From assembly GCF_030687295.1 (NCBI RefSeq), contig NZ_CP117425.1, forward strand, positions 4,282,001 through 4,346,000: DNA of 64,000 nt. Reading direction: 5' to 3'. This document shows positions 3,525-18,543 of this stretch, piece after piece. Each line of letters begins with the position of its first letter. The stretch's first letter is position 1. Position numbers and translations under genes: made by a program. The notes under the pieces were generated by a model, which was not told the origin of the DNA, did no database searches, and worked only from the letters and a program-made list of their open reading frames with translations. This stretch comes from Pseudomonas beijingensis. GTDB lineage: Bacteria > Pseudomonadota > Gammaproteobacteria > Pseudomonadales > Pseudomonadaceae.

Positions 3525-3588
3525 GGGGCTGGGGTGGAGATGGATGTTGTGTCTGCTGAAGATTGAAGGTGGGACATATCCCAGTGAG

Positions 3589-4470
3589 TCACTTGAACAA
3601 CTCGGTGCTCATGAAATCAATGAACACCCGCAGTTTCGGCGCCAGGTGTTTGCTTGAGGGCCAGAGCATGCGGAAGGTGCTCTGATGCCGATTGAAGTCG
3701 TCCAGGACGGTGACCAGTTCACCGGCAGCGATGGCCTCCCGCACAGTGAAATCCGGCACACAGGCGATCCCCAGCGCATCGTGCACAACGTGCAGCAACG
3801 CCTCGGTGGTGTTGCAGACCAGGGTCGCCGGCAGGTTGAGTTCCGGCTCTCCGTCCCCGTTTACCGGCCAGACTTGCATCCTGCCGGTACTGGGGAACTT
3901 GTACAGCAAGCAGGCATGACCCAGCAGGTCCGCCGGTGCGTGCGGGGTGCCGTGCTCGGCGAAGTACCGGGGCGAACCGACCACAACGAGCTTGAACGGG
4001 CCCAACGGCCGGGACATCAGTCGGGAGTCGTTCGGCTCACCCGTCCGAATGACCGCATCGAAACCCTCCTCGATGATGTCCACCAGTCTGTCGGAAAAAT
4101 CCAGGTCCAGTTCGATACTGGGGTAGCGGCGCATGAAGGCAATCAGCGTCGGCATGACCAAATCCGCAACGAGGGGCAAACTCACACGCAGTTTGCCCCG
4201 TGGCGCCTTGCGGGTTTCCGACAGTTCCAGTTCGGCTGCTTCGACCTCGCAGAGAATGCGCCGGCAACGTTCAAGAAACAGCGTCCCTTCCGCCGTCAGC
4301 GTGATACTGCGTGTGCTGCGATGAAACAGCCGCACACCCAGCCGCGCCTCAAGCCGGGCGACGCTTTTGCCCACCGCCGAAGACGAAATACCCAGCGCCC
4401 TACCCGCCTCCGAAAAGCTGCGGGTTTCGGCCGCGCGCACAAAAAAATCAATCCCGCTCAGTGATTCCAC
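3589..4470 (-). CDS. LysR family transcriptional regulator
   Basis: 293 residues from the GTG at 4468-4470. This start gives the usual N-terminus (ESLSGIDFFVRAAETRSFSEA) and has GGGAGCG upstream; longer frames add non-homologous residues. An N-terminal winged helix-turn-helix (about 5-65, with SSSAVGKSVARLEARLGVRLF) is followed by a LysR substrate-binding domain of the CrgA/DmlR-like type. It is divergent from the MFS exporter gene across about 150 bp, the usual layout in which a LysR protein controls its neighbour. The inducing ligand is unknown. Confidence 0.88.
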   Translation of the reverse strand: MESLSGIDFFVRAAETRSFSEAGRALGISSSAVGKSVARLEARLGVRLFHRSTRSITLTAEGTLFLERCRRILCEVEAAELELSETRKAPRGKLRVSLPLVADLVMPTLIAFMRRYPSIELDLDFSDRLVDIIEEGFDAVIRTGEPNDSRLMSRPLGPFKLVVVGSPRYFAEHGTPHAPADLLGHACLLYKFPSTGRMQVWPVNGDGEPELNLPATLVCNTTEALLHVVHDALGIACVPDFTVREAIAAGELVTVLDDFNRHQSTFRMLWPSSKHLAPKLRVFIDFMSTELFK

Positions 4471-4623
4471 GCCACGCTCCCATTGCGGACATTTTTTCCG
4501 ATGTGTTGTGCACTCTAGCATTCTTGTCTCGACAAAGACGGGCACCTACCGTAGTCGACACTTATCAATCTGCGATTGACCACGTCGTTCCGGCGGGTCA
4601 GGCGCGTTCCAGGCAGGTAACAC

Positions 4624-5832
4624 ATGACGATTGCCAACACCCATATCGACGCAGAGGCCGAGGTTGTTCAAGGTACTGCACCGCTCCCCATCGGTTCACT
4701 GTTTGCCCTCGCACTGGCGGCGTTCGTGACCATCCTCACCGAAGCCTTGCCCGCCGGTCTTCTTTCGCAGATCAGCGAAGGGCTGGCGATCTCCGAGGCC
4801 CTGGCCGGCCAGTTGGTAACGGTCTACGCGATAGGTTCCTTGCTGGCGGCTATTCCATTGACGGCCGTGACCCAAGGCATGCGGCGCAGACCGCTCTTGC
4901 TGCTGGCCATCGCCGGCTTCGCCGTTGCCAATACCGTTACGACACTGTCCACTCATTATGCTTTGACGATGGTCGCGCGCTTGCTGGGCGGCGTATCGGC
5001 CGGACTGCTGTGGGCCTTGCTGGCCGGTTATGCCGCCCGCATGGTGCCCGAGCACCAGAAAGGTCGAGCGATTGCGATCGCCATGGTGGGCGCACCCTTG
5101 GCGTTATCCCTGGGTGTACCGGCCGGCACGCTGCTCGGCAACCTGATCGGCTGGCGGATGAGTTTCGCCATCATGAGCCTGTTCGCCGTGGCCTTGATGG
5201 TCTGGATACGACTCAAGGTGCCTGACTTTCCCGGGCAAACCACCCACAAACGCCTTGCCTTGAGCCAGGTCTTCAAGCTGCCGGGCGTGCGCTCGGTGTT
5301 GTTTGTGGTGCTGGCTTTTGTTCTGGCGCACAACATTCTCTTTACCTATATCGCTCCGTTTTTGACGGCGGTGGGCCTAGGCGAGCGGACGGATCTGGTC
5401 CTGCTGGTCTTTGGCGTCGCGTCGTTGCTGGGGATCTGGGTCGTCGGCGTGCTGATCGATCGCCATCTACGGGCGTTGACGCTGGCAGGCACGGTGCTCT
5501 TCGCCCTTTCGGCAATGATGCTGGGGGCGATGAGCGACAGGCCTGTAGCGGTGTATATCGCCGTGGCCGCTTGGGGAGTTGCTTTTGGAGGGGCTGGGAC
5601 ACTGTTCCAGACGGCCATCGCCAAGACTGCGGCAGAGGCGGCGGATCTCGCCCAGTCGATGCTGGTCACGGCCTGGAACCTCGCCATTGCCGGCGGCGGG
5701 ATCGTGGGAGGTGTCCTGCTCGATCACCTGGGGGTCGTTGCGTTTGCGCCTGTCCTGGTCGTTCTCCTGCTGCTGACGTTGGCGGTGGTGTGGTCTGCCA
5801 GCAAGTGCGGGTTTACACGAAGCCTTCAGTGA
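4624..5832 (+). CDS. MFS transporter, DHA1/AraJ-like exporter
   Basis: 402 residues with about twelve hydrophobic segments. The profile matches the AraJ/YdhP-type drug:proton antiporters of the major facilitator superfamily. The first helix region reads FALALAAFVTILTEALPAGLL. MFS motif C-like glycine-rich stretches occur mid-protein (LGVPAGTLLGNLIGW). It probably exports a small hydrophilic metabolite or drug by proton antiport across the inner membrane. It is divergent from the LysR regulator, which likely controls it. It ends 21 bp from the convergent end of the next MFS gene. Confidence 0.88.
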   Translation: MTIANTHIDAEAEVVQGTAPLPIGSLFALALAAFVTILTEALPAGLLSQISEGLAISEALAGQLVTVYAIGSLLAAIPLTAVTQGMRRRPLLLLAIAGFAVANTVTTLSTHYALTMVARLLGGVSAGLLWALLAGYAARMVPEHQKGRAIAIAMVGAPLALSLGVPAGTLLGNLIGWRMSFAIMSLFAVALMVWIRLKVPDFPGQTTHKRLALSQVFKLPGVRSVLFVVLAFVLAHNILFTYIAPFLTAVGLGERTDLVLLVFGVASLLGIWVVGVLIDRHLRALTLAGTVLFALSAMMLGAMSDRPVAVYIAVAAWGVAFGGAGTLFQTAIAKTAAEAADLAQSMLVTAWNLAIAGGGIVGGVLLDHLGVVAFAPVLVVLLLLTLAVVWSASKCGFTRSLQ

Positions 5833-5852
5833 CGATTGTTGGTCATCTTCGC

Positions 5853-7172
5853 TCAAGTCTCGTGCTCTGCAGTCAACCCAGGGTTAGCGCTTGCCCGGTA
5901 TTTCGACAGGCTTACCCAGGCCAGCGGAATTGCGCTCAGGCAGGCTGCGGCAAACAACCAGTGCGCTGCCGCCAGAGCATCCCCGCTCTGTCGGTAGATC
6001 AGGGTAATCAGCGTCGGCGTGGAACTGCCAAAGAGGGTCACCGACAAGGCGTAGGCCAGCGAGACCCCCAGGGCCCTGACTTGCACCGGAAACAGCTCGG
6101 CCAAGGCCGCCGAAGCCGGCCCCGTGTAAAGCACCATCAGCACTGCCAGCCCGCATTGGAAGCTGATCAACGTCTGGAGACTGGGGCTGTTGTTCAACCA
6201 TACGAACCCTGGGTATACGCAGAGCGCGACCCCCACGGAACCGATGAGCATGACGGTATAGCGCCCGATACGGTCCGATAGCAGTGCGGTCAAGGGACAC
6301 AATAGTGTGATGAGGCCTACCAGCACCAACCCCAGGTAGGCCTCGTTGCGCGGAAGCTCAAGCACCATCGATGCATAGGTCGGCATGAAATTGATCAATT
6401 GTGTCGCAACAGTCCAGAGGACGACGATCAACACCCCCATCACGAGGTTGGGCAGGTAGGGGCGCAGGCTTGTCCCCTTTCCTGGCAGTGCTTGATTAGC
6501 CTGGTCATCGAGAAAGCGGCGCAGCGGCTCGCTTTCCTCAAGGCTGCGGCGAATCTTCAGACCGGCGACCACGACCAGCAGCCCAAAGACATAGGGCACG
6601 CGCCACCCCCACTCATCCAACTGGGCTGGCGTCAACGCGCTCGACAACAGACTCGCACTTAAACCGCATAGCAGGAATGATCCGGCTTGCGCCACTTGTT
6701 GGCTGGAAGCAAATAGACCACGACGGTCGGCAGGTGCCGTTTCGACAAGATAGGCCAACGCGCCACCAATCTCCCCGCCTGCTGCAACCCCCTGCAATAT
6801 GCGCGCGACGACAATGCTCAGCGGTGCCCACCAACCAATGGCCTGATAGGTCGGGCAGACCGCAATAATCAGGGTTCCGGCGCCCATCAGCATGATGGAC
6901 AGGGTCAGCGCGGCCTTGCGTCCCCGGCGATCGGCATAGCGCCCCATCAACAGCGCCCCCAACGGCCGGGCAACGAAGCCGACCGCGAGCGCCAGGTAGG
7001 AAGCGAGCAACGACATCAATGGGTCGGAAGCCGGAAAGAACGCCGCCGCGATCTGCAAGGCAAAGATTGCAAACAGGGTGAAGTCGAACCATTCCAGCGC
7101 GGCGCCCACACTCACCGCCAGCACCAGCTTTCTGCGCTCGCGCCCCTGGTTATCCAGGGCGGTAGCGCTCAT
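5853..7172 (-). CDS. MFS transporter, metabolite:H+ symporter (MHS) family
   Basis: 439 residues, about twelve membrane segments. The MHS-type signatures are present: GRYADRRGRK (loop 2-3 motif A) and GVAAGGEIGGALAYLVETAP. The family includes ProP, ShiA and citrate/alpha-ketoglutarate symporters, which usually import zwitterionic or acidic metabolites with protons. The start codon overlaps the stop of the upstream M20 peptidase gene in an ATGA, so translation is coupled. It is the last gene of the eight-gene biosynthetic-type operon. It may take up a precursor, recycle product, or export product; the sequence does not decide. Confidence 0.85.
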   Translation of the reverse strand: MSATALDNQGRERRKLVLAVSVGAALEWFDFTLFAIFALQIAAAFFPASDPLMSLLASYLALAVGFVARPLGALLMGRYADRRGRKAALTLSIMLMGAGTLIIAVCPTYQAIGWWAPLSIVVARILQGVAAGGEIGGALAYLVETAPADRRGLFASSQQVAQAGSFLLCGLSASLLSSALTPAQLDEWGWRVPYVFGLLVVVAGLKIRRSLEESEPLRRFLDDQANQALPGKGTSLRPYLPNLVMGVLIVVLWTVATQLINFMPTYASMVLELPRNEAYLGLVLVGLITLLCPLTALLSDRIGRYTVMLIGSVGVALCVYPGFVWLNNSPSLQTLISFQCGLAVLMVLYTGPASAALAELFPVQVRALGVSLAYALSVTLFGSSTPTLITLIYRQSGDALAAAHWLFAAACLSAIPLAWVSLSKYRASANPGLTAEHET

Positions 7173-8410
7173 TGCTCACCCCCGGCGGGAAGTGGGGGCA
7201 ATGGCTCACAACACGCCAGGCGGCGCAGGAACTGCTCACAGGCCTCAAGCTGAGCCAGTTCCACATACTCGTTTGCCTTGTGCGCTTGCTTGATACTTCC
7301 TGGGCCGCAGACGATCGTGGGAATCCCAGCGGCCTGGAACAACCCGGCCTCGGTGCTGTACGCCACTCGCTGTCGGCCATGGGTCATTGAACTCGCCTCG
7401 CGAACCCACTGCGCGAATGCCTGATTGCCCTTCTCATCCAGCCCCGGGGTATGCAGCGTGTGGAAAAACTCAATGGACGCCCCCGCAGCGCGATCATTCA
7501 TCTCACTGTGCATGGCCTGGCTGGCGTCCTCCTTGATCTGTACCAACAGCTGCTCGGCATCGCACCCGGGCAGGTAGCGAATCTCGAAGTCAAAATTGCA
7601 TTGGCCAGGAATGACATTGCCTGCCACACCGCCGTTGACCCGGCAGACCTGAACGGTGGTGTACGGGACATCAAACCCACTGTCCAGCGGCCCCTTTGCC
7701 AGCCGTCTGGCCACCCGCTGAAGCTGCATCTGTACTCGCGCGGCATAGTCGATCGCGTTGACCCCCTCGCTGGGCAACGATGAGTGCGCCACCTTGCCGT
7801 GGACACAGCAATTGATTTCATGACGCCCTTTGTGGCCGATCACCAACGCCATTGAAGTCGGCTCGCCGACAATACAACCGGCGGGTTCCAACTGCGCCTG
7901 CGTGATAAATGGGGCCAGGTGTTTCGCCCCCATCGCGCCCACCTCTTCGTCATAGGACAGGGCCAGGTGAAAGCTTTGCCGTGCAGACGCCATCAGCTCT
8001 GGAACCATCGCCAGCACCACGGCGATAAACCCCTTCATATCCGAACTGCCACGACCGTACAGCCGCCCATGGTCCAGGTGGGCGCTGAACGGATCCTGCG
8101 CCCAGGCTTGGCCCGCTACGGGCACCACGTCGGTATGTCCGGACAGGATGATGCCGCCGGGGCGCGGCGGGCCGAGACTGGCAAACAGGTTCGCCTTGCG
8201 CCCGGAGACGTCCGGCAGAATTTGGGCCTGCACCCCGACGCCGTGCAGGTACCCGCTCACCCATTCGATAAGGTCCAAATTGGAGCGGTCGCTGACCGAA
8301 GGGAAACCAATCAAGGTGCGTGCGATCTCCAACGTGCGTGCCAGCACGCTGCGGCCGTCATTCGAGCAAGCGTCTGCCGCCCCCTGCGCAAAGGCCAAGG
8401 AAAGAGTCAT
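7169..8410 (-). CDS. M20 family metallopeptidase, ArgE/acetylornithine deacetylase-like
   Basis: 413 residues from the ATG at 8408-8410 (GGAG about 10 bp upstream); longer frames overlap the EamA gene. Metal-site motifs are present: SGHTDVVPV (first His and the catalytic Asp), GRGSSDMKG (bridging Asp), SYDEEVGAMG (catalytic Glu-Glu), and a late HKANE containing the last ligand His. M20 enzymes hydrolyse N-acyl amino acids or dipeptides with two zinc or cobalt ions. True arginine synthesis is unlikely given its place inside an accessory operon. It may deacylate an intermediate or hydrolyse a dipeptide product, for maturation or self-protection. It begins 23 bp after the EamA gene and overlaps the MFS gene. 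Confidence 0.87.
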   Translation of the reverse strand: MTLSLAFAQGAADACSNDGRSVLARTLEIARTLIGFPSVSDRSNLDLIEWVSGYLHGVGVQAQILPDVSGRKANLFASLGPPRPGGIILSGHTDVVPVAGQAWAQDPFSAHLDHGRLYGRGSSDMKGFIAVVLAMVPELMASARQSFHLALSYDEEVGAMGAKHLAPFITQAQLEPAGCIVGEPTSMALVIGHKGRHEINCCVHGKVAHSSLPSEGVNAIDYAARVQMQLQRVARRLAKGPLDSGFDVPYTTVQVCRVNGGVAGNVIPGQCNFDFEIRYLPGCDAEQLLVQIKEDASQAMHSEMNDRAAGASIEFFHTLHTPGLDEKGNQAFAQWVREASSMTHGRQRVAYSTEAGLFQAAGIPTIVCGPGSIKQAHKANEYVELAQLEACEQFLRRLACCEPLPPLPAGGEQ

Positions 8411-8433
8411 GGGATGCTCCAGCAAACAGAAGT

Positions 8434-9383
8434 CTATTTTTGAAGGGCGACCGGCATAGGCCCTGAATGAACAACGCGCCTGTCTCGCGAAAACCAGACG
8501 TTGGACAACAACACCGCCACGCACACCAGCGTAACCAGGACTGGCACCCAGGGGCTATGCCAGGTGGAGAGTACGAACTCGGCCGCCAAGGCAATGACCG
8601 GCACGCACGGCGTGAGAATGGACACCCGCCCGCCTCCCAAATGCTGAATGGCAAACTGCAGGGTGAACACCGGAATCAGCACGCTGACAAACGCCAGCTG
8701 GATCAATTGACCGAGCATGGCGGTATCAAGCGTGAGCAATTGGTGCAAGTTTTCCCGGCCGACCCAGCCCGTGACAATCAATAGCAGGAAGAACCTGACG
8801 CACAGAATATCCATGGCGCTGTACTTGCTGTCACGGTTCAGTCGAGCCGAGCAGAACACATAGATCCCACCGGTGATCCCGGCGACAGTGGCCAGGGCAA
8901 TGCCCTCATGCAAGTTGACAAGACTGACCTGGGCCGTGACTCCAAGCGCGAGGCGCATAAGGACCAGGGCCATCAGCGACAACAGGATCAGCAGCGCGCC
9001 CAACCACCGGGAACGACTGACTGCGGACCTCGCCACCAGCATTTCACAAACCACCACCACCAGCGGCATCCAGCCCCCTGATAGATGGCCGATTCCACTG
9101 AAGCCTCGATACGCTGCAACGCCATGAACATCAGCCACCAACTGAACAGTGTCAGCACATTGAGCAGCAGCACGCCTCGCCACTCCTCGCGCAGTAGCCG
9201 AAACGGGTCATGCCCCCGCAAGGTATGCACCAGGAAAAATACCGCCCAGGCCATCAGGAAGGTAATGAATGTCAGCGCCGCCCCACTGATACGGGTGAAC
9301 GCCACCATGACCCAGACGGCCGAGAGCGCCGTCGAGATGCAGTAGACCGCCATGCTGACGGCACCGAGTATTCCTGTCTTCAT
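8434..9383 (-). pseudogene. EamA family transporter, single-base frameshift
   Basis: The N-terminal half (from ATG 9383, AAGGAGCAGGC upstream) has about four membrane helices ending in ESAIYQG. The C-terminal half continues in another frame with GGWMPLVVVVCEMLVAR and further helices. The switch lies at a run of five C on the plus strand (9074-9078). One additional base makes a continuous protein of about 316 residues with ten helices, the normal DMT/EamA size. Such proteins usually export amino acids or related metabolites. Within this operon it is the natural exporter of the product. It is either a sequencing error or a recent inactivation. Confidence 0.82.
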
Positions 9384-9430
9384 GCCTGCTCCTTGAGAAG
9401 AACCTGTTGCTTGCCGCCCGCGGAATTTGA

Positions 9431-10714
9431 TCAAGCGGTTCCCGGCTCCAGCACTTCCACCTGGGTTGGCACGTAGTGCTGCAAGGCTTCGAAGTCGGCG
9501 CGGAGCACCTTTGGATCTGCGTTATACAAAGTCAGGATGCCCGCGGTATCGGCCAGGGACCGGGAGTCCACCACCATTCCGGGGGCGACCCTCCAGTCGA
9601 TGCTGTAAGTACTGGAAATGGGGGGTTCGTTGAGCTGGCTGATCCGACCTTTGCGCAAGGGCAACAAGGCGGACACCACGTTGTTCTTCTCGTTGGGCTT
9701 GATGTCATCAAGCGCTGCGGCCCCGGCGACGAGGTAGAGATTGGCGTCGATCAGGTTGATATCGCTGTTTTTCTCGTGGTACGGCACCCCGATACCGCCA
9801 GGCACGCGTGCGGCAATTTCCAGGAACACCGGATAACCGCGCTTGCGGTCCACGAAGACCTCGTGGTGCGTCGAACCGTTGCGAAAGTTCAGGGCTGCAA
9901 TAACATCCCGGTTGAAGGCTTCCAGGGTCGCCTTGAGCGTGGGATCGGCTACGGGAATCACGCTCAAGGGCTTGCCCTGGACAAAGTCGAAGTTGGTGCA
10001 GCCCAGTTCCAGGACGCCGCAGTAGCGGATTTGACCGTCAACCACAAACGAATCGCACTGGAACATGTCACCGTCGATGAACTCGTCCACCTCATAATCA
10101 AAATGATACGGTGAGGCCAGCACTTGTTCTCGGGCCTTGATGAATTCGGCCTCGTTGCGAATGATCGACACCTCGAAACTGCCCGCTGCGTTCACCGGTT
10201 TCAGGACCAGGGGCAAGCCCAATCGCGCCGTCAGCTCGGCGTAGTAAGCCTGCGGCTCAGCCGATAGCCGTACGTGATCCAGGGGCACGAACTCGGGAAT
10301 GCGTATTCCCTTTTCGCTGACGGCGTGTTTCATCAGCACCTTGTCGCGAAAGTTCGCCACGATCGCCTGTGTATCGCCCTCTAATCCGAACTCCTCGCGC
10401 AATTGTGCCGCCAGCTCAACGTGGCACTCTTCCTGGCAGAAAATACGCAATGACGAAGTATTGCCCTGCACGGCTCGCAACTCATCGCTGATGATGCTTC
10501 GACATTGGTCATGATCCAGCAACGGGCGAATGTTGCGCTGCAGGTCGGCATCGACGCGTGCAATCTGCGAGACGTTGCGCTCGAGTGTGGGCGGCAGGAC
10601 ATCGGCATGATAGGCGATCAGTACTGTCCGGCATTCTCGACCCAGCGTCCGCAGCGCCTTCTCGGAGGCGAAGTTAAGGTAATGGGGCGTCAGGAAAACG
10701 ATGGTCTTGATCAT
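9431..10714 (-). CDS. ATP-grasp ligase, amino-acid ligase-like
   Basis: 427 residues. An N-terminal Rossmann-like pre-ATP-grasp region begins KTIVFLTPHYLNFASEKA. The ATP-grasp fold follows: an ATP-binding Lys in LPLVLKPVNAAGS, a second nucleotide strand in YEVDEFIDGDMFQCD, and the magnesium-site segment FLEIAARVPGG (usually FLEINPRxPGG, so the Asn is replaced by Ala). The family forms amide or peptide bonds through an acyl phosphate, as in L-amino-acid ligases and BacD-like enzymes. Its position next to an aminotransferase and two oxygenases suggests it joins a modified amino acid to another amino acid or amine. It starts 9 bp after the TauD gene. Confidence 0.83.
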   Translation of the reverse strand: MIKTIVFLTPHYLNFASEKALRTLGRECRTVLIAYHADVLPPTLERNVSQIARVDADLQRNIRPLLDHDQCRSIISDELRAVQGNTSSLRIFCQEECHVELAAQLREEFGLEGDTQAIVANFRDKVLMKHAVSEKGIRIPEFVPLDHVRLSAEPQAYYAELTARLGLPLVLKPVNAAGSFEVSIIRNEAEFIKAREQVLASPYHFDYEVDEFIDGDMFQCDSFVVDGQIRYCGVLELGCTNFDFVQGKPLSVIPVADPTLKATLEAFNRDVIAALNFRNGSTHHEVFVDRKRGYPVFLEIAARVPGGIGVPYHEKNSDINLIDANLYLVAGAAALDDIKPNEKNNVVSALLPLRKGRISQLNEPPISSTYSIDWRVAPGMVVDSRSLADTAGILTLYNADPKVLRADFEALQHYVPTQVEVLEPGTA

Positions 10715-10723
10715 GGTAATGCC

Positions 10724-11581
10724 TCACTGGAAGTCGACGTTCATGCGATAAAGAAGGCGCGCATCGGCGCCCCCTTCACTTTTGGGGATTGGCGGACCTT
10801 TATGCAGCGTTGAGAGGTTGTCCCAGATCACGATGTCGCCTGGGCGGTAGGCATGCCGATAGCGCGGCGCGTTCTGGACAAGGAAGTCGACCAGACTGTC
10901 GAGAATGCGCTGGGACAGTGCTGGCGTTACCCCTTCTATTTGCATGGCCGTGGCGGCCGGTGCATAAAGCGACGTCGTGGCGGCGATTGGGTGTTTGAAC
11001 ACCAAGGGGTGAACCACGGTGTCTTCCAGTGCGCCAGCCTCCTGGGGATTGAGTTGTTGCATTGCAGCGTCGGCATTGCGCAGTGTGTCGCGATTGCCGA
11101 ACCGATGGTGAATCCGCAGGTTTTCCAGGTCTAGGCCCTTCAGGTGCTGCGGGCAATCTGGACTATCCAGCCACTGGCGAACTTGATGCAGGCCTGCGAC
11201 ACAATCGATGAATTGAGTCTCACCGTGTTGGTCCGGTACACGTACCGACAGCAGTGACGTGAACACCGTGTTCGCCGATTTGTACGACATGTCGGTGTGC
11301 CAATACCCTCCTCCCTCATGCACACCCAAGGCCTGGCCGTCCCGATAGAGATTGGTCACGGTCAGCACTTCCCGATAGTCCTCGAGGCAGTACTTGGCCA
11401 ACACATGATGCACAGGTGCCCCCAGCCTGCGCATCAACTGCACATAGGGGGCAACGCTGACGTCCTGGTTGGCGATGACCAGCACCTTGGCCCCGGCGAT
11501 GGTTTGTTTGAGCTCCGCTGGCGACTGCCCGAGCACATCGCCAAGGTCCAGGCGCAGCGGCTGGAACATCCTCACGCCCAT
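10724..11581 (-). CDS. TauD/TfdA-type Fe(II)/2-oxoglutarate dioxygenase
   Basis: 285 residues from ATG 11581, preceded by AAGGA; a second ATG four codons in is possible. The iron triad is visible as H95-x-D97 in WHTDMSY and H260 in STLHKG, with an Arg (R275 or R279) placed to bind 2-oxoglutarate. The family hydroxylates, desaturates or halogenates unactivated carbons; because Asp97 is present, a halogenase is unlikely. Many members act on free or carrier-bound amino acids in natural-product pathways. It overlaps the end of the FAD oxidoreductase gene by 10 bp, which supports co-translation. The substrate is unknown. Confidence 0.87.
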   Translation of the reverse strand: MGVRMFQPLRLDLGDVLGQSPAELKQTIAGAKVLVIANQDVSVAPYVQLMRRLGAPVHHVLAKYCLEDYREVLTVTNLYRDGQALGVHEGGGYWHTDMSYKSANTVFTSLLSVRVPDQHGETQFIDCVAGLHQVRQWLDSPDCPQHLKGLDLENLRIHHRFGNRDTLRNADAAMQQLNPQEAGALEDTVVHPLVFKHPIAATTSLYAPAATAMQIEGVTPALSQRILDSLVDFLVQNAPRYRHAYRPGDIVIWDNLSTLHKGPPIPKSEGGADARLLYRMNVDFQ

Positions 11582-12741
11582 GACCGCAGTCCTTCTTGCA
11601 GTGATGTTGTGGCACTCATTTCTGCTGCTGCGGGCACCATCGTGTTGATCGATGCATAACCTGAAGCTGCGCCCGCGAAATACAGGCCGGCGACAGGGCT
11701 TTTCCCATCCTGGTGGCAGGTAAAGCCGGTTTGCGGGTTGAGCAGTTGTGGCCAGTCGGTAGCGGGGAGTTGTGCGGTGACGCCGATGGCCGACACCAGG
11801 CATTGGTCCTTCGCCAACACATCCAAGTGCAACTCATACCCCTCGGATGCCTGGGCAGCGACCAGCCGGCCCGACTCTTGAGCCTTGCGACAAGAAGCCT
11901 GGAGCAACGAATTGCCATTGAGCGACGCCGGAAGGTCCAAGACGACCTTGTCGCCGTCCTGGCGAATGCGGCTGTAGGCATGCAGCCAGATATTGGCCCG
12001 GCCCGTGCTATTGGCGCTGTTGAGCGGCCCTTGAAAGGAACTGGACGAAGTCTTGGCAATCATTTCCAGCGTGCGCTGGCTCAGGGACCTGAGGGCAAAA
12101 CGATCATCGGTCTCTTGGGGATACAGCCCCAGGTAGGATTTGATCAGGATGGACACATTGCGGGCGAACGGGGCAAGCAGTAGTGCGATCTGAAACGCAC
12201 TGTTACCGCTGCCAAAGATGACCACATCCTGCTGCAGGAAACGGAGGCCCTGCCCCCGCGCAACCATTTGATAGATATCAAAGCAGTTCAACCAACGGGC
12301 ATTGGGCATTTCGAAGGGCGGCGCCTTCGGGCGAATCCCGGTTGCCAGGATAATCTGCCGCGCGCGCAAGGAATGACTCTGGGAGCCCGGGGCCAGGCTC
12401 ACCTCGAACACCCCCTGCACCTTGCTTACGGTGACCACCCGTTGCTGGATCTTGGCCAGAGGCAAGGCTTCGAAGTTGCTACGGATATAGGCTGCGTATT
12501 CCTCACCGGTGGGGCTGACGCACAACTTGCGCATGAATCGATGCAAGGGATAGGGAGCGCCTTCAATCTCCAGCTCATTGCAGTATGACTGCAATGGATG
12601 ATCTCCCATCATGCCCATGCACCCCCCGAATACATCGCTGATGACCGCGACTTTCAGGCCCAGGTCGATCAGCCGGATACACTCGCTAAGCCCTGCGGGA
12701 CCGCCGCCTACGACAATGACGTCGAACACTTGCTGCTCCAT
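11572..12741 (-). CDS. FAD-dependent pyridine-nucleotide oxidoreductase, FMO-like
   Basis: 389 residues from ATG 12741 with GGAGG 10 bp upstream. An N-terminal FAD Rossmann fold begins FDVIVVGGGPAGLSECIRL, and a second nucleotide fold reads VVIFGSGNSAFQIALLL. ILATG closes the FAD domain. There is no CxxC redox pair of the thioredoxin-reductase kind; FGGCMGMMGDHP sits where it might be. The pattern resembles single-component flavin monooxygenases or amine-oxidising FMOs rather than disulfide reductases. In this operon it could N-hydroxylate or oxidise an amino-acid intermediate with NADPH and oxygen. It starts 1 bp after the aminotransferase stop. Confidence 0.82.
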   Translation of the reverse strand: MEQQVFDVIVVGGGPAGLSECIRLIDLGLKVAVISDVFGGCMGMMGDHPLQSYCNELEIEGAPYPLHRFMRKLCVSPTGEEYAAYIRSNFEALPLAKIQQRVVTVSKVQGVFEVSLAPGSQSHSLRARQIILATGIRPKAPPFEMPNARWLNCFDIYQMVARGQGLRFLQQDVVIFGSGNSAFQIALLLAPFARNVSILIKSYLGLYPQETDDRFALRSLSQRTLEMIAKTSSSSFQGPLNSANSTGRANIWLHAYSRIRQDGDKVVLDLPASLNGNSLLQASCRKAQESGRLVAAQASEGYELHLDVLAKDQCLVSAIGVTAQLPATDWPQLLNPQTGFTCHQDGKSPVAGLYFAGAASGYASINTMVPAAAEMSATTSLQEGLRSWA

Positions 12742-12742
12742 T

Positions 12743-13864
12743 TCAAAAATCCTCCAGGCGGGCACAGGCTTGATCAACAATGGGTTTGGCTACCGAGAAA
12801 GAAAACCGGACATAGGTGGGGCACTGCCCCAGGTAGAAGGGCGTCGCAGGCAATGGCATGACCCCGCAACGCATGGCCAAGTGTTGACTGAACTCAACCG
12901 GAGACAATGAAGGCGCCTGCCGTGAATAGTCGGCCATGATGTAATGGCCGCCCGCCGGTAACCGGATATCCAACCCGGCAGCCATCAGCGCACCTGCCAG
13001 GCGATCACGTTTGTGCTTGTAGTGCTCACGCAAGCTATCAAGTCGCCCGACGGTCAATTCATCAAGCAAAACAGCAACGGCGGCCTGTATGGGGGTGGGT
13101 TGGCAATAGCTCAGGTACAGGTGGTGGGCGTAGGCTCGCTCCATGAAGGTTGCCTGCGCGCATAACCAGCCGATCCGGACTCCCGTCATGGACAACAACT
13201 TTGAAGCGCTGCCCGCCACCATCATGGGAATCTGCTGGTGGGGGTACTGTGCCGGGGCGTCGGTGTCGTACTGATAGTGACGATAGGCTTCGTCGACAAT
13301 CACCATGAAGTCATGGTTTTTTGCCAACGCCACCAAGTGCTGCCAATCATCCGCGGACATGCACCACCCGGTCGGGTTGTGGGGCGTATTGAGCAGCAAT
13401 ATGCGAACACCGGCACGCAATTGCCGCTCGAACATTGCCCAGTCGGGGCCGATCGACGCCCCCACCGACAACGGTAGTGCAACAAACTCCAACCCCAGCA
13501 ACGTGGCCATTCCTGGGTAATAGGGATAAAAGGGTTCAAAAAAGGCGACCCTGCTGCCGTATTGCGTGGACGCGGCATACAGGGCCAAGTACAAGGCCTC
13601 GGTACAGCCGCTGGTCACCAGCACTTCGCTGTCGGGCGCATAGCCGGCACTGTGGGCCGCAATGCTTTCGCGCAAAATCATTTCGCCGCGAGGGTCGGCA
13701 TACTGCCAGCCCGACCGCACCTGGCGGGCCAACGCCGCATTCATGGCATTGTCAAACAGGGGTTCAGGAAGTCCTTGCGACAGGTTCAACGCCCCCGAGG
13801 ATGCTGCATAGGCACTGGCATCCCTGAAGGGCGCCACTCGACCAATCAATGTCAAATCATCCAT
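12743..13864 (-). CDS. PLP-dependent aminotransferase, class I/II
   Basis: 373 residues, near the usual length for the methionine/kynurenine aminotransferase (YbdL-like) branch. Landmarks are INLSQGLP-like NLSQGLPEP near the N-terminus, SGCTEALYLAL, the substrate/PLP Asn in NTPHNPTGWC, the PLP Asp in VIVDEAYRHY, the Schiff-base Lys in GSASKLLSMTG, and an Arg in VRFSFS for the carboxylate. It would interconvert an amino acid and a 2-oxo acid, or may be recruited for beta/gamma-replacement chemistry. GGGAAG precedes the ATG. It follows the heme-oxygenase-like gene by 26 bp. Confidence 0.88.
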   Translation of the reverse strand: MDDLTLIGRVAPFRDASAYAASSGALNLSQGLPEPLFDNAMNAALARQVRSGWQYADPRGEMILRESIAAHSAGYAPDSEVLVTSGCTEALYLALYAASTQYGSRVAFFEPFYPYYPGMATLLGLEFVALPLSVGASIGPDWAMFERQLRAGVRILLLNTPHNPTGWCMSADDWQHLVALAKNHDFMVIVDEAYRHYQYDTDAPAQYPHQQIPMMVAGSASKLLSMTGVRIGWLCAQATFMERAYAHHLYLSYCQPTPIQAAVAVLLDELTVGRLDSLREHYKHKRDRLAGALMAAGLDIRLPAGGHYIMADYSRQAPSLSPVEFSQHLAMRCGVMPLPATPFYLGQCPTYVRFSFSVAKPIVDQACARLEDF

Positions 13865-13890
13865 GACTTCCCGCCCCTTGTATTGATCGG

Positions 13891-14601
13891 TCAGGCGTGA
13901 GTGGCCACTCGGTTGAGTCCTTGCCAGAATCGGGTCAACAGGTTCAGTACATCGCCAGCGCCTTCCAGAATATCGCTGCCGTTGTCAGTGTCTCGAGCGG
14001 CCTCCATGACCGCGTCACTGATCCATTGCACATGATCGGTTTCAACCAGCATGTGCAGGTAGAAGTAGGTGAAGTCTTCGTGCTTCCACCCGCTGTACAG
14101 GCGGAAACCTTCGTACAGGTTGGCGATCATCGGAAAGCCGAACTCTTCGATAACGTAATGAGCACCAATGGCGTGCTCTGTCGAACCCTCAAGGAAAATC
14201 CGACGCAGGCCGTCGACCAACTCGCTGGCTTCGGGAATGTATTCAACCTTCTTCCAGTCATCCAATGTGATGCCGACGCCGGCGAGTACACGCTCAAACA
14301 TAATGAAGTGCGCCTCGCCTACCCCATCGCCCAGCTCAGACACCACCGTGCGCGCCAACTTCATCCGAATCACTTCGCTGTCGGTGCGGTGCGAGGTACC
14401 CGCCAGGATCTGGGGGAACGTACGAATGTAATAAAAGTATTGCTGGAACACTTTCTTCAACGTTGCCTTGGGCAGCGGGGCCTGGCGAAACGTTTTGTAG
14501 AACGCATTGGTGTTGATCCCCGAAGCCGTGATCATTCCTTTAATCGAATGGATGATTTGCTCACCCGTCAGACAGCCTTGTTCCATTTGCTGAGCCGGCA
14601 T
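13891..14601 (-). CDS. Heme-oxygenase-like di-metal oxidase (HDO superfamily)
   Basis: 236 residues from ATG 14601, which has GGGGA 5 bp upstream; an in-frame TTG lies four codons earlier. All-helical. The HDO/CADD-PqqC-like metal ligands can be read: E89 (SELGDG), H98 (EAHF), E152 (IEEFG), and H183/E187/H190 in YLHMLVETDHVQW. The last three reproduce the His-x3-acid-x2-His spacing of di-iron members such as CADD, UndA and BesC. Known members use O2 for oxidative C-C cleavage, decarboxylation or N-oxygenation of amino acids and fatty acids. It is the first gene of the operon, so it is likely the committing enzyme. The substrate is unknown. Confidence 0.82.
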   Translation of the reverse strand: MPAQQMEQGCLTGEQIIHSIKGMITASGINTNAFYKTFRQAPLPKATLKKVFQQYFYYIRTFPQILAGTSHRTDSEVIRMKLARTVVSELGDGVGEAHFIMFERVLAGVGITLDDWKKVEYIPEASELVDGLRRIFLEGSTEHAIGAHYVIEEFGFPMIANLYEGFRLYSGWKHEDFTYFYLHMLVETDHVQWISDAVMEAARDTDNGSDILEGAGDVLNLLTRFWQGLNRVATHA

Positions 14602-14694
14602 AGATTTCCCCAAATACGATAAGGTAGCTTGGACGGCAGTGACGAAATGTCGCTGCGCGTTTCAGATAGTAAACAAGCGACTCATGCAAACAAA

Positions 14695-14722
14695 TTAATA
14701 GTTTCAATCGGCTATGCTTCAA
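14695..14722 (-). promoter_or_regulatory. Candidate sigma-70 promoter of the HDO operon
   Basis: Reading the minus strand: TTGAAG (14722-14717), a 16-bp spacer, then TATTAA (14700-14695), about 95 bp before the HDO start. Each hexamer matches consensus at four of six positions. Confidence 0.35.
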
Positions 14723-14743
14723 ACAATAGATTTATTTTGAAAC
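14701..14743. promoter_or_regulatory. Inverted repeat GTTTCAA...TTGAAAC, possible operator
   Basis: Perfect 7-bp arms at 14701-14707 and 14737-14743, overlapping the candidate HDO promoter. It is a plausible site for the divergent XRE regulator. Short arms in AT-rich DNA can arise by chance. Confidence 0.3.
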
Positions 14744-14901
14744 ATGAAAAACTCATTATTATTTTTGATTAAAATCATAGGCTTAATTTCATAGAAAATT
14801 TTAACGCACAAAAATAGAGCATTATTTATTTTTTGCACCGACTTGATGCGCGCCAGCCGCTAAGCTGAAATTAAATTACCCTGATCTGGAAGTCTTCTAT
14901 A

Positions 14902-15459
14902 GTGAACAACCAACCCATTGACATCGCCCTGACCATCAAAGCCGAGCGAACCGCCCGTGAATGGTCCATCGGCGAGCTCGCCCAGCTCTCCGGCGTATCA
15001 AAGGCTATGATCAGCAAAATTGAAAACGCACAGGTCAGCCCTACCTCAACGATCCTGGGCCGGTTGTCAGGTGCGTTCGGTTTACCCCTCTCCACCCTGC
15101 TGCATCGGGCCGAGGGGCGCTCGGGACTTCTTTCAAGGGCGGCGGAGCAACCGCGCTGGGTAGACCCGGAAACCGGCTATGCGCGCCAGCAAGTCTCACC
15201 CCGGGAGGGCTGGCCACTGGAACTCATCAGTGTGCAACTGCCCCCGGGCGTGCGCATCAGCTATCCCGCCACGGCTTACGCGTTCCTTCATCAGCAGGTG
15301 TGGGCCACGCAAGGTACGCTGACGTTTACCAAGGGCACCACCACCTACCTTCTGGAACAAGGCGACTGCTTGCAATTGGGACTGCCTGAAGAAGCCTGCA
15401 CGTTCGAAAACGCCACGCCGCAAGTCTGTGAATACGTCATAGCCTTGATTCGCAAGTAG
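14902..15459 (+). CDS. XRE family transcriptional regulator with cupin domain
   Basis: 185 residues from GTG 14902 (GGAAG upstream). An N-terminal HTH (about 10-65: TAREWSIGELAQLSGVSKAM, then SKIENAQVSPTSTILGRL) is followed by a C-terminal cupin beta-barrel (about 105-183; GTLTFTKGTTTYLLEQGDCLQL). This architecture is shared by regulators of amino-acid and polyamine metabolism (PuuR/SutR-like), where the cupin senses a small ligand. It is divergent from the HDO operon and is the obvious candidate to control it in response to a substrate or product. Confidence 0.9.
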   Translation: MNNQPIDIALTIKAERTAREWSIGELAQLSGVSKAMISKIENAQVSPTSTILGRLSGAFGLPLSTLLHRAEGRSGLLSRAAEQPRWVDPETGYARQQVSPREGWPLELISVQLPPGVRISYPATAYAFLHQQVWATQGTLTFTKGTTTYLLEQGDCLQLGLPEEACTFENATPQVCEYVIALIRK

Positions 15460-15640
15460 CAACAGCCCCATCGGTAACCGCCTGCAACAAAGGCTAGCCG
15501 ACGGCACGTCAATCATGCCGACCTGCAAGCAGGTATCGCGCGCCCGGAATAGCCGTCCGAGGTAGGCACCGCCAACTGACATCAAACTGTCATCACTTCT
15601 TCGCCGAAATGCCACGATTGCTGGCTACTGTCCTCGCCAA

Positions 15641-15654
15641 TGAGATCGATCTCA
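15641..15654. promoter_or_regulatory. 14-bp perfect palindrome, candidate LacI-family operator
   Basis: TGAGATCGATCTCA is a perfect palindrome ending 11 bp before the LacI-family ATG. Its centre is ATCGAT rather than the commonest CGNNCG, but length, symmetry and location suit autoregulation by the downstream regulator. Confidence 0.45.
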
Positions 15655-15665
15655 AGCGAGTGACA

Positions 15666-16685
15666 ATGACTGATTTGAAAGAAGTGGCACGTCTGGCAGG
15701 GGTTTCGCGAGCTACCGCTGCCCGCACCTTCGCCTCCCCTGAAGTGGTGCGTCCGGCTACCCGCGAGCAGGTGTTCGCCGCCGCACGGCAGCTGGGTTTC
15801 CGGCCCAATCGTCTTGGTCGTCAGTTGCGCCTGCAAGTGACCAAGCTGATCGGTGTGGTGGTCCCCAACCTGCTCAATCCCGTGTTCGCCGAACAATTCC
15901 AAGCCATGGAGCGCGCTGCGCGTTTGCGCGGCTACAACCTGCTCCTGGCGACGACCGACTACAGCAGCGAGCGCGAAAGCGTGGTGGTCGAGGAGTTGTT
16001 GCGCCAGCGGGTCGATGGCCTGGTCCTCACGGTCACCGACGCCGAGAGCAACCGCGTGTTGCAAAGCCTGGACAGCGAGGACACGCCTTTTGTGCTGGCT
16101 TATCACCAGCCGGGCAATCCGCACTACAGCGCCGTGTCGGTGGACAACCGCGCCGGCATGGCTCTGGCCACTCGTTATCTGCTGGAAGCCGGGCATTGGC
16201 GCATTGGCATGGTTGCCGGCCCGGCCCTGCAATCGGACCGCGCTCGCCTGCGTTACGCCGGTTATTGCGACGCCATGCGCGAGGCCGGCCTCGACAGCCT
16301 GCCGGTGATTGAAATGCCGGCCCATACCCAGGCGGACTTCGCCGCCATCGCGCCCTTCCTGCAAGGTCCGCAGGCCCTCAGCGCACTGGTTTGCTCCAAC
16401 GATCTGTTGGCCATCAGCCTGATCGCACAACTGCGTCGCAACGACTGGCACGTGCCCCAACAGCTCTCGGTCATGGGATTCGATGGCATCGCCCTCGGCA
16501 CTCAAATGCACCCGACATTGTGCAGCGTGGTTCAGCCCATCGAGGCCTTGGCCTGCACCGTAATCGATCAATTGCTGGCGCAGATTGCCGGCGCCACACC
16601 GGTTACCCATTGCCTGCCCTGCCATATCCGGCCGGGCGAAAGTACTCAATCCTACAAGGAGACACTTGATGATTCGCTTGCGTAA
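15666..16685 (+). CDS. LacI family transcriptional regulator
   Basis: 339 residues from ATG 15666, which gives the canonical start (TDLKEVARLAGVSRATAARTF). HTH at about 4-50 with a hinge helix region around NRLGRQLRLQ, then a periplasmic-binding-protein-like ligand domain beginning IGVVVPNLLNPVFAEQ. The C-terminal part has GFDGIALGTQMHPTLCSVVQP. It overlaps the binding-protein gene by 17 bp, so regulator and transporter form one transcript. The ligand is likely the transported compound or its breakdown product. Confidence 0.9.
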   Translation: MTDLKEVARLAGVSRATAARTFASPEVVRPATREQVFAAARQLGFRPNRLGRQLRLQVTKLIGVVVPNLLNPVFAEQFQAMERAARLRGYNLLLATTDYSSERESVVVEELLRQRVDGLVLTVTDAESNRVLQSLDSEDTPFVLAYHQPGNPHYSAVSVDNRAGMALATRYLLEAGHWRIGMVAGPALQSDRARLRYAGYCDAMREAGLDSLPVIEMPAHTQADFAAIAPFLQGPQALSALVCSNDLLAISLIAQLRRNDWHVPQQLSVMGFDGIALGTQMHPTLCSVVQPIEALACTVIDQLLAQIAGATPVTHCLPCHIRPGESTQSYKETLDDSLA

Positions 16686-17673
16686 AACCCTGGCGACGTT
16701 GCTGCTATGCGGCGCTGCCAGCCTGGCCCAGGCCGCCGAAACGGCGATTTGCTACAACTGCCCACCGGAATGGGCCGACTGGGGCACACAGCTCAAGGCC
16801 ATTGCCGATACCACTGGCGTGCAGGTCCCGCTGGACAACAAGAACTCCGGGCAGGCACTGGCGCAACTGGTCGCCGAACAGGCCGCGCCTGTAGCGGACG
16901 TGGTGTATTACGGCGTGACCTTCGGTTTGCAGGCGCAAAAAGCCGGGGTGGTCGGCACTTATCAACCCAAGGGCTGGGAACAGATTCCGGCAGGCTTGAA
17001 AGATCCGCAGGGACACTGGTTCGCCATTCACTCCGGCACCCTGGGCATCATGGTCAACGTCGATGCCTTGGGCGGCTTGCCTGTGCCGCAAAGCTGGGGC
17101 GATCTGCTCAAGCCTGAGTACAAAGGCATGGTCGGCTACCTTGATCCATCCAGCGCGTTCGTCGGTTACGTTTCCGCGGTAGCGATCAACCAGGCCATGG
17201 GCGGTAGCCTCAATGACTTCACGCCGGCGATCGATTACTTCCAGAAACTGGCGAAAAACTCACCCATCGTGCCCAAGCAGACCGCTTACGCACGGGTGTT
17301 GTCCGGGGAGTTGCCGATTCTGGTGGATTACGACTTCAACGCCTATCGGGCACGTTACAAGGACAAGGCCAACGTTGCTTTCGTGATCCCCAAGGAAGGC
17401 AGCATCAGCGTGCCTTACGTCATGAGCATCGTCGGCAACGCGCCGCATCGGGCCAATGCCGAGAAGGTCCTGGACTTCGTCCTGTCCGACCAGGGCCAGG
17501 CGCTCTGGGCCAAGGCCTACCTGCGACCGGTGCGGGCGATGAAGATGCCTGCCGACATCGCTGCGCAGTTTCTGCCAGACAGCGATTACGCCCGGGCCGG
17601 CGTGGTCGACTACCAGCAGATGGCGGCGGCACAGGAAGCCTTTTCTGCACGTTATCTGAAAGAGGTCAAGTAA
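16669..17673 (+). CDS. ABC transporter periplasmic substrate-binding protein
   Basis: 334 residues from ATG 16669 (AAGGAG upstream). A Sec signal peptide (RLRKTLATLLLCGAASLAQA, cleavage near residue 22) precedes a type 2 periplasmic-binding fold resembling the Fe(III)/putrescine/2-aminoethylphosphonate group. Segments such as HWFAIHSGTLGIMVN and SWGDLLKPEYKG are typical of that group. A CYNC pair sits just after the cleavage site. With the downstream phosphodiesterase, an organophosphorus substrate (phosphonate or glycerophosphodiester) is a reasonable guess but not shown. The next gene starts immediately after the stop. Confidence 0.88.
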   Translation: MIRLRKTLATLLLCGAASLAQAAETAICYNCPPEWADWGTQLKAIADTTGVQVPLDNKNSGQALAQLVAEQAAPVADVVYYGVTFGLQAQKAGVVGTYQPKGWEQIPAGLKDPQGHWFAIHSGTLGIMVNVDALGGLPVPQSWGDLLKPEYKGMVGYLDPSSAFVGYVSAVAINQAMGGSLNDFTPAIDYFQKLAKNSPIVPKQTAYARVLSGELPILVDYDFNAYRARYKDKANVAFVIPKEGSISVPYVMSIVGNAPHRANAEKVLDFVLSDQGQALWAKAYLRPVRAMKMPADIAAQFLPDSDYARAGVVDYQQMAAAQEAFSARYLKEVK

Positions 17674-18543
17674 GTGACCGCCTCGGTAATAAAAGCCCGG
17701 GGAGTCCCTTCGGGCCAGGCCACAGCGCCGCGTTTGCGGCTGACCGCGGCCTGGGCCCTGGCGCCTGCGGCTGCGGTGCTGTTCGCGTTCTGGTTGTTGC
17801 CACTGGCGCATCTGATCGTGCTGGGCGGGCAAAATCGCGACGGCGGCGAAAGCGGCTATTGGCAGGTACTGAGCAGTGCGCAATACCTGGGCAGTCTGGT
17901 ACAGACCTGCCTGCTGGCCTTGGCGACGACCCTGGCGGCGCTCTTGGTGGGGGGCATCAGTGGTTTTTTTCTCAGCCGCCAACGCTTCTTCGGCCGCTCG
18001 CTGCTGGTCGCCTTGTTAACGTTTCCGTTGGCATTCCCCGGCGTGGTGGTCGGCTTCCTGGTGATTCTGCTGGCCGGGCGCCAAGGCTTGTTCGCCAGCC
18101 TTGGCCTCGAGCTGGCGGGTGAACGCTGGATCTTCGCTTACTCGCTGATGGGGTTGTGCCTCGGTTATCTGTACTTCTCGATTCCACGGGTGATCCTCAC
18201 GGTGATGGCTGCTTGTGAAAGCCTCGATCGCAGCCTGGAAGAAGCTGCTCATTCCCTGGGCGCCGGCCACTGGCGAGTGGTTTGCGATGTCATCGTCCCC
18301 GGTCTGGCACCGGCACTGGTCTCGTGCGGGGCGATCTGCTTTGCGACCTCCATGGGCGCGTTCGGTACGGCCTTCACCCTCGGCACCCGCCTGAATGTGA
18401 CCCCGGTGGCGATCTACAACGTGTTCACCAACTACGCCAATTTCGCCGTGGCCGCTGCGCTGTCGGTGGTGTTGGGGGCGCTGACGTGGGCAGTACTGCT
18501 ACTGGCCCGACGGCTGGCAAAAAACTCGAGGACCGTCTTGTGA
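17674..18543 (+). CDS. ABC transporter permease (first subunit)
   Basis: 289 residues from GTG 17674, directly following the binding-protein stop. Six hydrophobic segments. The EAA loop that contacts the ATPase reads EEAAHSLGAGHWRVVCDVIVPG. It is of the binding-protein-dependent inner-membrane type (PotB/PhnU-like). It overlaps the second permease gene at GTGA, so translation is coupled and the two subunits likely form a heterodimeric channel. Confidence 0.9.
   Translation: MTASVIKARGVPSGQATAPRLRLTAAWALAPAAAVLFAFWLLPLAHLIVLGGQNRDGGESGYWQVLSSAQYLGSLVQTCLLALATTLAALLVGGISGFFLSRQRFFGRSLLVALLTFPLAFPGVVVGFLVILLAGRQGLFASLGLELAGERWIFAYSLMGLCLGYLYFSIPRVILTVMAACESLDRSLEEAAHSLGAGHWRVVCDVIVPGLAPALVSCGAICFATSMGAFGTAFTLGTRLNVTPVAIYNVFTNYANFAVAAALSVVLGALTWAVLLLARRLAKNSRTVL

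Follow-up and report, generated by a model that had tools for sequence, protein, structure and literature searches.

The question raised by the locus described here is what might be made by an operon that joins a haem-oxygenase-like dimetal oxidase (HDO), an aminotransferase, an FAD oxidoreductase, a TauD-type Fe(II)/2-oxoglutarate (Fe/2OG) dioxygenase and an ATP-grasp ligase to transporter genes. The operon lies in a 64,000-nucleotide stretch of the Pseudomonas beijingensis genome (assembly GCF_030687295.1, contig NZ_CP117425.1, positions 4,282,001 to 4,346,000; hereafter the window), where eight genes run on the minus strand from 14601 to 5853 and a regulator at 14902-15459 (+) is transcribed divergently. 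The block very probably serves to synthesise and export a small molecule, either a modified amino acid or a short peptide. On balance, we favour a more specific reading, in which six of the genes form a mobile cassette whose exported product is a short peptide, most probably a dipeptide, that carries a non-protein amino acid altered by oxidation. The features, in window coordinates, are:

14902..15459, plus strand: XRE-family regulator; Pfam HTH_3 at the N-terminus (E 5e-12), C-terminal half with no Pfam match
13891..14601, minus strand: HDO, 236 residues; Pfam Haem_oxygenas_2
12743..13864, minus strand: pyridoxal-phosphate (PLP) aminotransferase, class I/II, 373 residues; Aminotran_1_2, E 3e-45
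11572..12741, minus strand: FAD/NAD(P)H oxidoreductase, 389 residues; Pyr_redox_2/Lys_Orn_oxgnase
10724..11581, minus strand: TauD-type Fe(II)/2-oxoglutarate dioxygenase, 285 residues; TauD, E 5e-37
9431..10714, minus strand: ATP-grasp amino-acid ligase (predicted), 427 residues; ATP-grasp_4
about 8434..9383, minus strand: EamA/DMT exporter, frame interrupted; pieces 9383-8988 and 9183-8434, each matching EamA
7169..8410, minus strand: M20 metallo-amidohydrolase, ArgE-like, accessory; NF005710 and TIGR01892 above cut-off
5853..7172, minus strand: major facilitator superfamily (MFS) transporter, metabolite:H+ symporter type, accessory; MFS_1/Sugar_tr
14659..14674, minus strand: candidate operator GTTTACTATMTGAAAC, 57 bp upstream of the HDO start
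5826..15574, no strand: entire presence/absence unit, about 9.75 kb, delimited by junctions in relatives L059 and L060

From the HDO to the MFS gene the spacings are +26, +1, -10, +9, +47, +23 and -4 bp, and every gene except EamA has a full open frame. The first-pass annotation of the window, made from the sequence and its open reading frames (ORFs), had placed eight same-strand genes with short gaps or overlaps at these positions and called them an eight-gene operon. The local arrangement holds; the conserved set is six genes, the M20 and MFS genes being lineage-specific. In line with its further statement that assembly-line enzymes are missing, no non-ribosomal peptide synthetase (NRPS) or polyketide synthase domain was detected among the operon genes. 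None of the NCBIfam models listed for the five core enzymes reaches its cut-off (25 of 74 models listed for the aminotransferase). Known RNA families gave no match at the gathering threshold in 5-16 kb, a sigma-70 scan stayed near the shuffled level (3 found; 3.7 ± 2.3 in shuffles), and a terminator-like scan was not clearly above it (13; 9.3 ± 3.0).

The operon is a discrete unit with sharp limits. Its two flanking genes were sought in 76 relatives (E ≤ 1e-130); the LacI gene was found in 12 and the MFS gene of the other side in 10, and the two are adjacent in two relatives, G039 and G035, whereas G017 holds both far apart, with an MFS protein only 62% identical. In G039 (L059), window 3587-5825 is joined to 15575-17552 at 89-92% identity with 52 bp between, and in G035 (L060), 3570-5816 is joined to 15573-18000 at 87-88% identity with 53 bp between. 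What varies between genomes is therefore the regulator together with all eight genes; gain and loss are indistinguishable from the empty sites alone. The two boundaries share no repeat of 16 bp or longer, and no transposon was seen among the boundary ORFs. Around the other Pseudomonas-type carriers (L012-L016 and L035-L038) the flanks of the P. beijingensis unit were not seen in the DNA examined, so the unit has more than one site. Beside the operon, window 15609-20362 (+) encodes a LacI-type regulator, an SBP_bac_6 binding protein, two permease-like ORFs and one ABC ATPase-like ORF; the LacI and SBP_bac_6 genes are chromosomal flanks, also present in relatives.

Comparison of thirteen named loci (L001, L002 and L010-L020) shows that the conserved unit is six genes: HDO, aminotransferase, FAD oxidoreductase, TauD, ATP-grasp ligase and EamA. 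The first four occur in all thirteen loci, and the ligase and EamA in twelve each, the contig of L017 ending inside its ligase. All five enzymes lie together on one strand in 12 of the 13 (the exception being L018), in the order HDO, aminotransferase, FAD enzyme, TauD, ligase in 11; in the two actinobacterial loci the FAD gene is placed upstream. EamA comes after the ligase in the seven Pseudomonas-type loci and before the HDO gene in the other five that have it. Carriers of the core include Pseudomonas, Burkholderia (plasmid), Pantoea (phage-like plasmid), Mixta, Prodigiosinella, Catenulispora and, in part, Streptomyces. The cluster is rare, with 11 carriers among 398 Pseudomonas genomes (G051, G248 and G362 being matched by contig coordinates to L012, L014 and L016) and the P. 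beijingensis genome itself the sole carrier in wider samples of 369 genomes of the class and 398 of the phylum.

Co-occurrence points the same way. A protein database search returned 165 HDO entries at E ≤ 1e-10, of which the best 120 were used, together with at least 58 in-family ATP-grasp entries (385 bits or more; next entry 203) and at least 15 in-family FAD entries (288 bits or more; next entry 76), the ligase and FAD counts being lower bounds from about 8000 scored candidates. Exact longest-contig size was shared with one of the 120 listed HDO entries by 17 of the 58 listed ligases (mean coincidence 0.12 in a control with shifted ligase contig sizes) and by 6 of the 15 listed FAD enzymes; the out-of-family entries gave 0 of 11 and 0 of 8, respectively. 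Among the candidates scored, members of the FAD and ATP-grasp families seem to occur almost exclusively with the cluster. Across 10 loci, the five enzymes also show pairwise distances that correlate at 0.66-0.91, a figure uncorrected for the carriers' own kinship. Independent scatter of the homologues, which the first-pass annotation had named as the finding that would count against it, is thus contradicted by joint recurrence in the named loci, co-occurrence and correlated distances.

The cluster is also horizontally mobile and plasmid-borne in some hosts, which goes beyond what the first-pass annotation had claimed. The genome, a single contig of 6.45 Mb, lies close to P. brassicacearum, with an HDO 98.7% identical to that of strain CCUG 51508 (L010). 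In an HDO tree of 50 sequences (midpoint root, several long branches), Enterobacterales, Vibrio and Marinobacter group with actinobacteria (a set of 25, support 100/99), apart from Pseudomonas and Burkholderia. Identities agree, since Pantoea, Mixta and Prodigiosinella are 67-71% identical to two actinobacteria and 54-61% to the Pseudomonas-type loci. This sequence pattern points to HDO transfer between phyla. The Burkholderia glumae plasmid p19s1p carries the cluster amid many insertion sequence elements, and in the plasmid of Pantoea sp. CCBC3-3-1 (L002, 14021-20069) the six-gene core lies amid annotated portal, head-processing, holin and tail-fibre-assembly genes. As cargo among phage structural and lysis genes, the core may have been spread by a phage-plasmid. 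The Pantoea plasmid is the sole phage-like carrier seen, and a phage collection and viral contigs gave no match to the cluster.

The operon HDO has the α7 haem-oxygenase fold of its superfamily. Residues E89, H98, E152, H183, E187 and H190 are invariant in 50 of 50 sequences and form the predicted ligand set of three histidines and three carboxylates; the positions were assigned by HMMER alignment with BesC and CADD, guided by what we take to be the metal ligands of CADD. By sequence, in a profile search of solved structures, the closest solved relative is BesC; by fold comparison HrmI, CADD and BesC are tied. Equivalence to BesC was rejected, as the HDO scores 72.8 bits on the BesC model NF042919 (cut-off 500). 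MboA, VarO and AetD were not among the matches listed in the fold comparisons, which excludes none of them. Elsewhere in the window, a second Haem_oxygenas_2 protein (44010-45641, minus strand; 543 residues, domain at residues 189-356, E 1e-27) has only a weak kinship to its counterpart in the operon (hhalign probability 35%, E 4e-4); its neighbours are a methyltransferase (42986-43999), a YbdK-type carboxylate-amine ligase (41851-43053, above cut-off) and LigD (39227-41854).

The aminotransferase and TauD retain their catalytic residues. In the aminotransferase, K222, D191, Y194, N163, R230 and R353 are invariant in 12 of 12 sequences. Identity with the cyclodehydratase GntC was rejected, since the score on model NF041364 (207.3 bits; cut-off 415) is no better than on ordinary aminotransferase models. 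The FAD enzyme has the two-dinucleotide-binding-domain fold with FAD and NAD(P)H motifs of the flavin monooxygenase/YpdA type; some homologues are annotated as thioredoxin reductases, a reading rejected because CxxC is present in 0 of 13 members. In TauD, H95-x-D97...H260 and R275 are invariant in 13 of 13. Fe/2OG halogenases characteristically lack the carboxylate (Asp) metal ligand, and with HxD intact in all thirteen sequences a halogenase was rejected.

The ATP-grasp protein is of the L-amino-acid ligase type by its kinship to solved dipeptide ligases, and its ligation activity is predicted. Searched as a profile against solved structures, it matched the L-amino acid ligase 4wd3 best (E 9e-16), followed by 3vot (3e-9), BacD (1e-7) and 30vh (1e-6), with BL00235 and BacD ranking after 4wd3. 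All six matches listed were of the L-amino-acid (dipeptide) ligase type, and only L-amino-acid ligases and BacD were found at E ≤ 1e-6. This result favours a dipeptide. Equivalence to DdaF or BacD themselves was rejected, the scores (40.8 and 19 bits) falling far under the NCBIfam cut-offs (840 and 850).

No close match to a characterised system was found for this set, a match being the other finding that the first-pass annotation had named as counting against it. One related system is mangotoxin (mboABCDEF, P. syringae), in which, according to passages of a 2026 study, the HDO MboA, served by a flavin partner of its own, MboB, works on a peptide built by ATP-grasp ligation, and no NRPS is used (PMC13185094). 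The mbo cluster, as those passages describe it, combines a pair of ATP-grasp enzymes with a flavin/Fe2S2 reductase and an arginine deiminase, whereas the P. beijingensis operon has one ATP-grasp enzyme, a CxxC-less FAD enzyme, TauD, an aminotransferase and no deiminase-like gene, and so falls outside the mbo type as defined by two ATP-grasp enzymes and a deiminase with an HDO and its flavin/Fe2S2 partner. The β-ethynylserine (bes) pathway of Streptomyces cattleya shares the HDO type, BesC being closest, and presumably the PLP enzyme, Fe/2OG enzyme and ATP-grasp types; the operon differs in an Fe/2OG enzyme that retains Asp, which separates it from a bes-like halogenase pathway, and in having the FAD enzyme and EamA. 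The first-pass annotation had drawn this comparison, with the proviso that gene content differs, and it holds: the kinship lies in the types of enzyme and not in gene membership. The HDO also scores below the BesC cut-off. With the guanitoxin cluster the operon shares an aminotransferase match to the GntC model, at 207 bits, far under the cut-off of 415. Dapdiamide (DdaF) and bacilysin (BacD) share stand-alone ATP-grasp dipeptide ligation, BacD being found by the ligase profile; we know of no HDO in either pathway. A published description of the cluster was not found in the open-access literature searched, and the earlier reader, too, had recognised no characterised match. PNP-1, judged by passages of its description (PMC4010436), is a different cluster, and the main text of the P. 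brassicacearum 3Re2-7 genome paper, in the portions available, names no ATP-grasp, heme oxygenase, TauD or dioxygenase (PMC6722718). Clusters with an HDO and an ATP-grasp enzyme are a recognised kind: the 2026 study describes, in the same passages, at least 25 types and solves mangotoxin, and the present cluster may be one of the 25 (PMC13185094).

The regulator was found in the seven Pseudomonas-type loci (L010-L016) and not in the other six. It had been read as a divergent cupin-XRE protein; the divergent helix-turn-helix half stands, and Pfam detects no cupin domain even at E ≤ 1. In the 300 bp intergenic region, GTTTACTATMTGAAAC is exact in eight of nine aligned loci, with one mismatch in L014. 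The exact match is unique in the 6.45 Mb genome; two further places match at two mismatches, as do two for a reversed control. We regard GTTTACTATMTGAAAC as a candidate operator, with a putative function. In the Catenulispora locus (L020), a MerR-type regulator lies behind the ligase (14433-15413) and has no match to the XRE regulator, so regulators seem to be lineage-dependent.

Gene content, sequence conservation, catalytic residues, traces of transfer and the empty site are observed; from them we infer a pathway, including its order of steps, substrate, product, bioactivity and direction of transport. The HDO, likely the first step, would use O2 to oxidise a C-H or N position of a basic amino acid, for which lysine or a near relative of it is our first candidate. 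Passages of a 2026 review give lysine as the substrate of HrmI and 4-chloro-lysine as that of BesC (PMC13108848). The flavoprotein would either donate electrons to the HDO or perform a second, mono-oxygenase oxidation, and TauD would hydroxylate or desaturate an intermediate. The PLP enzyme would set the α-amino group, or drive an elimination or cyclisation, before the ligase couples the modified amino acid to an ordinary one and EamA exports the product, with the divergent regulator presumably controlling the block. In one Pseudomonas lineage the ArgE-like amidohydrolase and the MFS symporter would most plausibly add peptide hydrolysis inside the producer and/or transport. The first-pass annotation had expected a non-proteinogenic amino acid or dipeptide antimetabolite: a co-inherited unit for biosynthesis and export agrees with this and the ligase profile favours the dipeptide, while the antimetabolite role stays conjectural.

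Several points weigh against this reading. Product, transcript and activity are all deduced from sequence. Fold similarity leaves the HDO substrate unfixed, given the tied ranks, and the same review states, in the passages available, that HDOs sharing identical primary ligands diverge (PMC13108848). A search with the single ligase sequence ranks D-Ala-D-Ala ligases first (E 1e-7) and L-amino acid ligases next (2e-6). The Streptomyces durbertensis contig (L018) has neither ATP-grasp nor EamA within 13.2 kb, through a contig edge or a real absence. The exporter is frameshifted in the P. beijingensis genome itself. Genes are interrupted in three other copies: the HDO end, aminotransferase and MFS gene in P. 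amygdali ICMP 3918 (L014; 7222-7928, 7959-9077 and 14648-15939), the FAD gene in P. syringae pv. cilantro (L016; 11871-13032) and the aminotransferase in Mixta (L017; 3325-4400). Lastly, an M20 enzyme and a symporter would equally suit catabolism.

The alternative that survives best, though we hold it to be clearly the less probable, keeps the synthesis and changes the chemistry. The HDO would be an N-oxygenase of the HrmI/RohS kind and the flavoprotein an N-hydroxylase, with the ATP-grasp enzyme making the amide; the product may bear a nitro, oxime, hydroxamate, diazeniumdiolate or isonitrile group and may serve as a metal ligand or electrophile. The lysine N-oxygenases HrmI and BelK (hormaomycin, belactosin) have Fe/2OG partners, at 19% identity to the operon HDO over the fold; HrmI was not among the 11 entries of the HDO profile search of solved structures. 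The hormaomycin and belactosin pathways use NRPS enzymes, which this operon lacks.

The interrupted genes raise a second alternative, compatible with a synthesis-and-export cassette and in our view rather unlikely: that the P. beijingensis copy is a decaying island with no present function. The first-pass annotation treated EamA as one frame, whereas its halves here fall in two ORFs of different frames (9434-8988 and 9183-8434); in Pseudomonas relatives EamA is a single open frame of 315-351 residues. In all four alignments, which cover three relatives (L010 and L032 being the same contig), EamA contains a frame-shifting length difference and the spacer differs by one base. A short-chain dehydrogenase/reductase gene about 6 kb away from EamA (2396-3176, plus strand) is likewise in two frames (ORFs 2396-2872 and 2523-3176), which makes assembly or base-calling indels a plausible cause of the EamA break and a real possibility for this assembly. 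With the interruptions in L014, L016 and L017, some copies may be dead, and several seem to be decaying or misassembled. Against decay of the P. beijingensis copy stand, besides the split gene nearby, the full open frames of the remaining seven genes, the retained operator-like site and the 97-99% ligase and HDO identity with L010 and L011.

Less probable still is a catabolic or scavenging operon, in which a plant-derived N-acyl amino acid or peptide would be imported, hydrolysed by the M20 enzyme and degraded by the oxygenases and transaminase. A divergent regulator is a common layout in catabolic operons. The M20 protein exceeds the acetylornithine-deacetylase (ArgE-type) cut-offs, with 490.3 bits on NF005710 (cut-off 412) and 374 on TIGR01892 (cut-off 297.7), and the MFS protein is closest to the symporter-type model TIGR00883, at 350.1 bits under a cut-off of 443.45. 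These two genes are accessory, however. M20 is present in 5 of the 13 named loci; it was not found in eight (L017 and L018 among them end soon after the core), nor was a full MFS gene in eight. The pair is present in 8 of the 11 Pseudomonas carriers (the MFS gene of L014 being interrupted; the M20 of G423 was taken from L013 by matching contig coordinates) and not in G349, G362 and G420. An MFS piece behind the B. glumae ligase, 45% identical, might have indicated an ancestral MFS gene; this was rejected because the piece best matches another MFS protein of P. beijingensis (50%), with the operon MFS third (46%). The conserved part, moreover, holds a ligase and an EamA transporter common to actinobacteria, and narrow degradation needs no amino-acid ligase.

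Given this distribution, the hydrolytic release or immunity earlier proposed for the M20 enzyme probably plays no central part. We also considered that M20, as an acetylornithine deacetylase, might protect arginine synthesis by bypassing ArgJ, in analogy to the target proposed for mangotoxin; this has no specific support, because the genome has two further NF005710 proteins above cut-off (three with the operon M20) and one ArgJ. In a 99-genome sample the operon M20 is 76% identical to that of carrier G051 and at most 48% to other entries, and it thus looks like a long-standing private partner of the lineage, not a stray housekeeping copy. That the genes are unrelated neighbours with the look of an operon, a general risk, is practically dismissed by same-strand recurrence across phyla, the exact presence/absence unit and the co-occurrence statistics.

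As an enzyme class HDOs are young: passages of the 2026 review put the validated members at about a dozen, with very varied reactions (PMC13108848). Within it, the operon HDO is unusually constant between the Pseudomonas-type loci and Streptomyces durbertensis (61-62% identity). With six genes that apparently make up the entire pathway, no NRPS among them, and empty-site relatives as a natural on/off comparison, the product is directly findable. That plasmids carry the cluster in Burkholderia glumae and Pantoea hints at a molecule of enough value, in competition or in contact with a host, to be traded. The authors of the mangotoxin study state, in the passages available, that MboAB may be the first dedicated HDO-partner pair (PMC13185094); if the flavoprotein of this cluster is indeed a dedicated HDO partner, it would form only the second. 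On a bolder reading, which we hold less likely than not, the cluster would represent an undescribed family of peptide-type antimetabolites, made by a complete synthesis-export cassette that crosses phyla, including on plasmids and a phage-like plasmid, with its flavoprotein, of a family seen almost only in such clusters, as a second, Fe-S-free dedicated HDO donor or partner oxygenase beside MboB.

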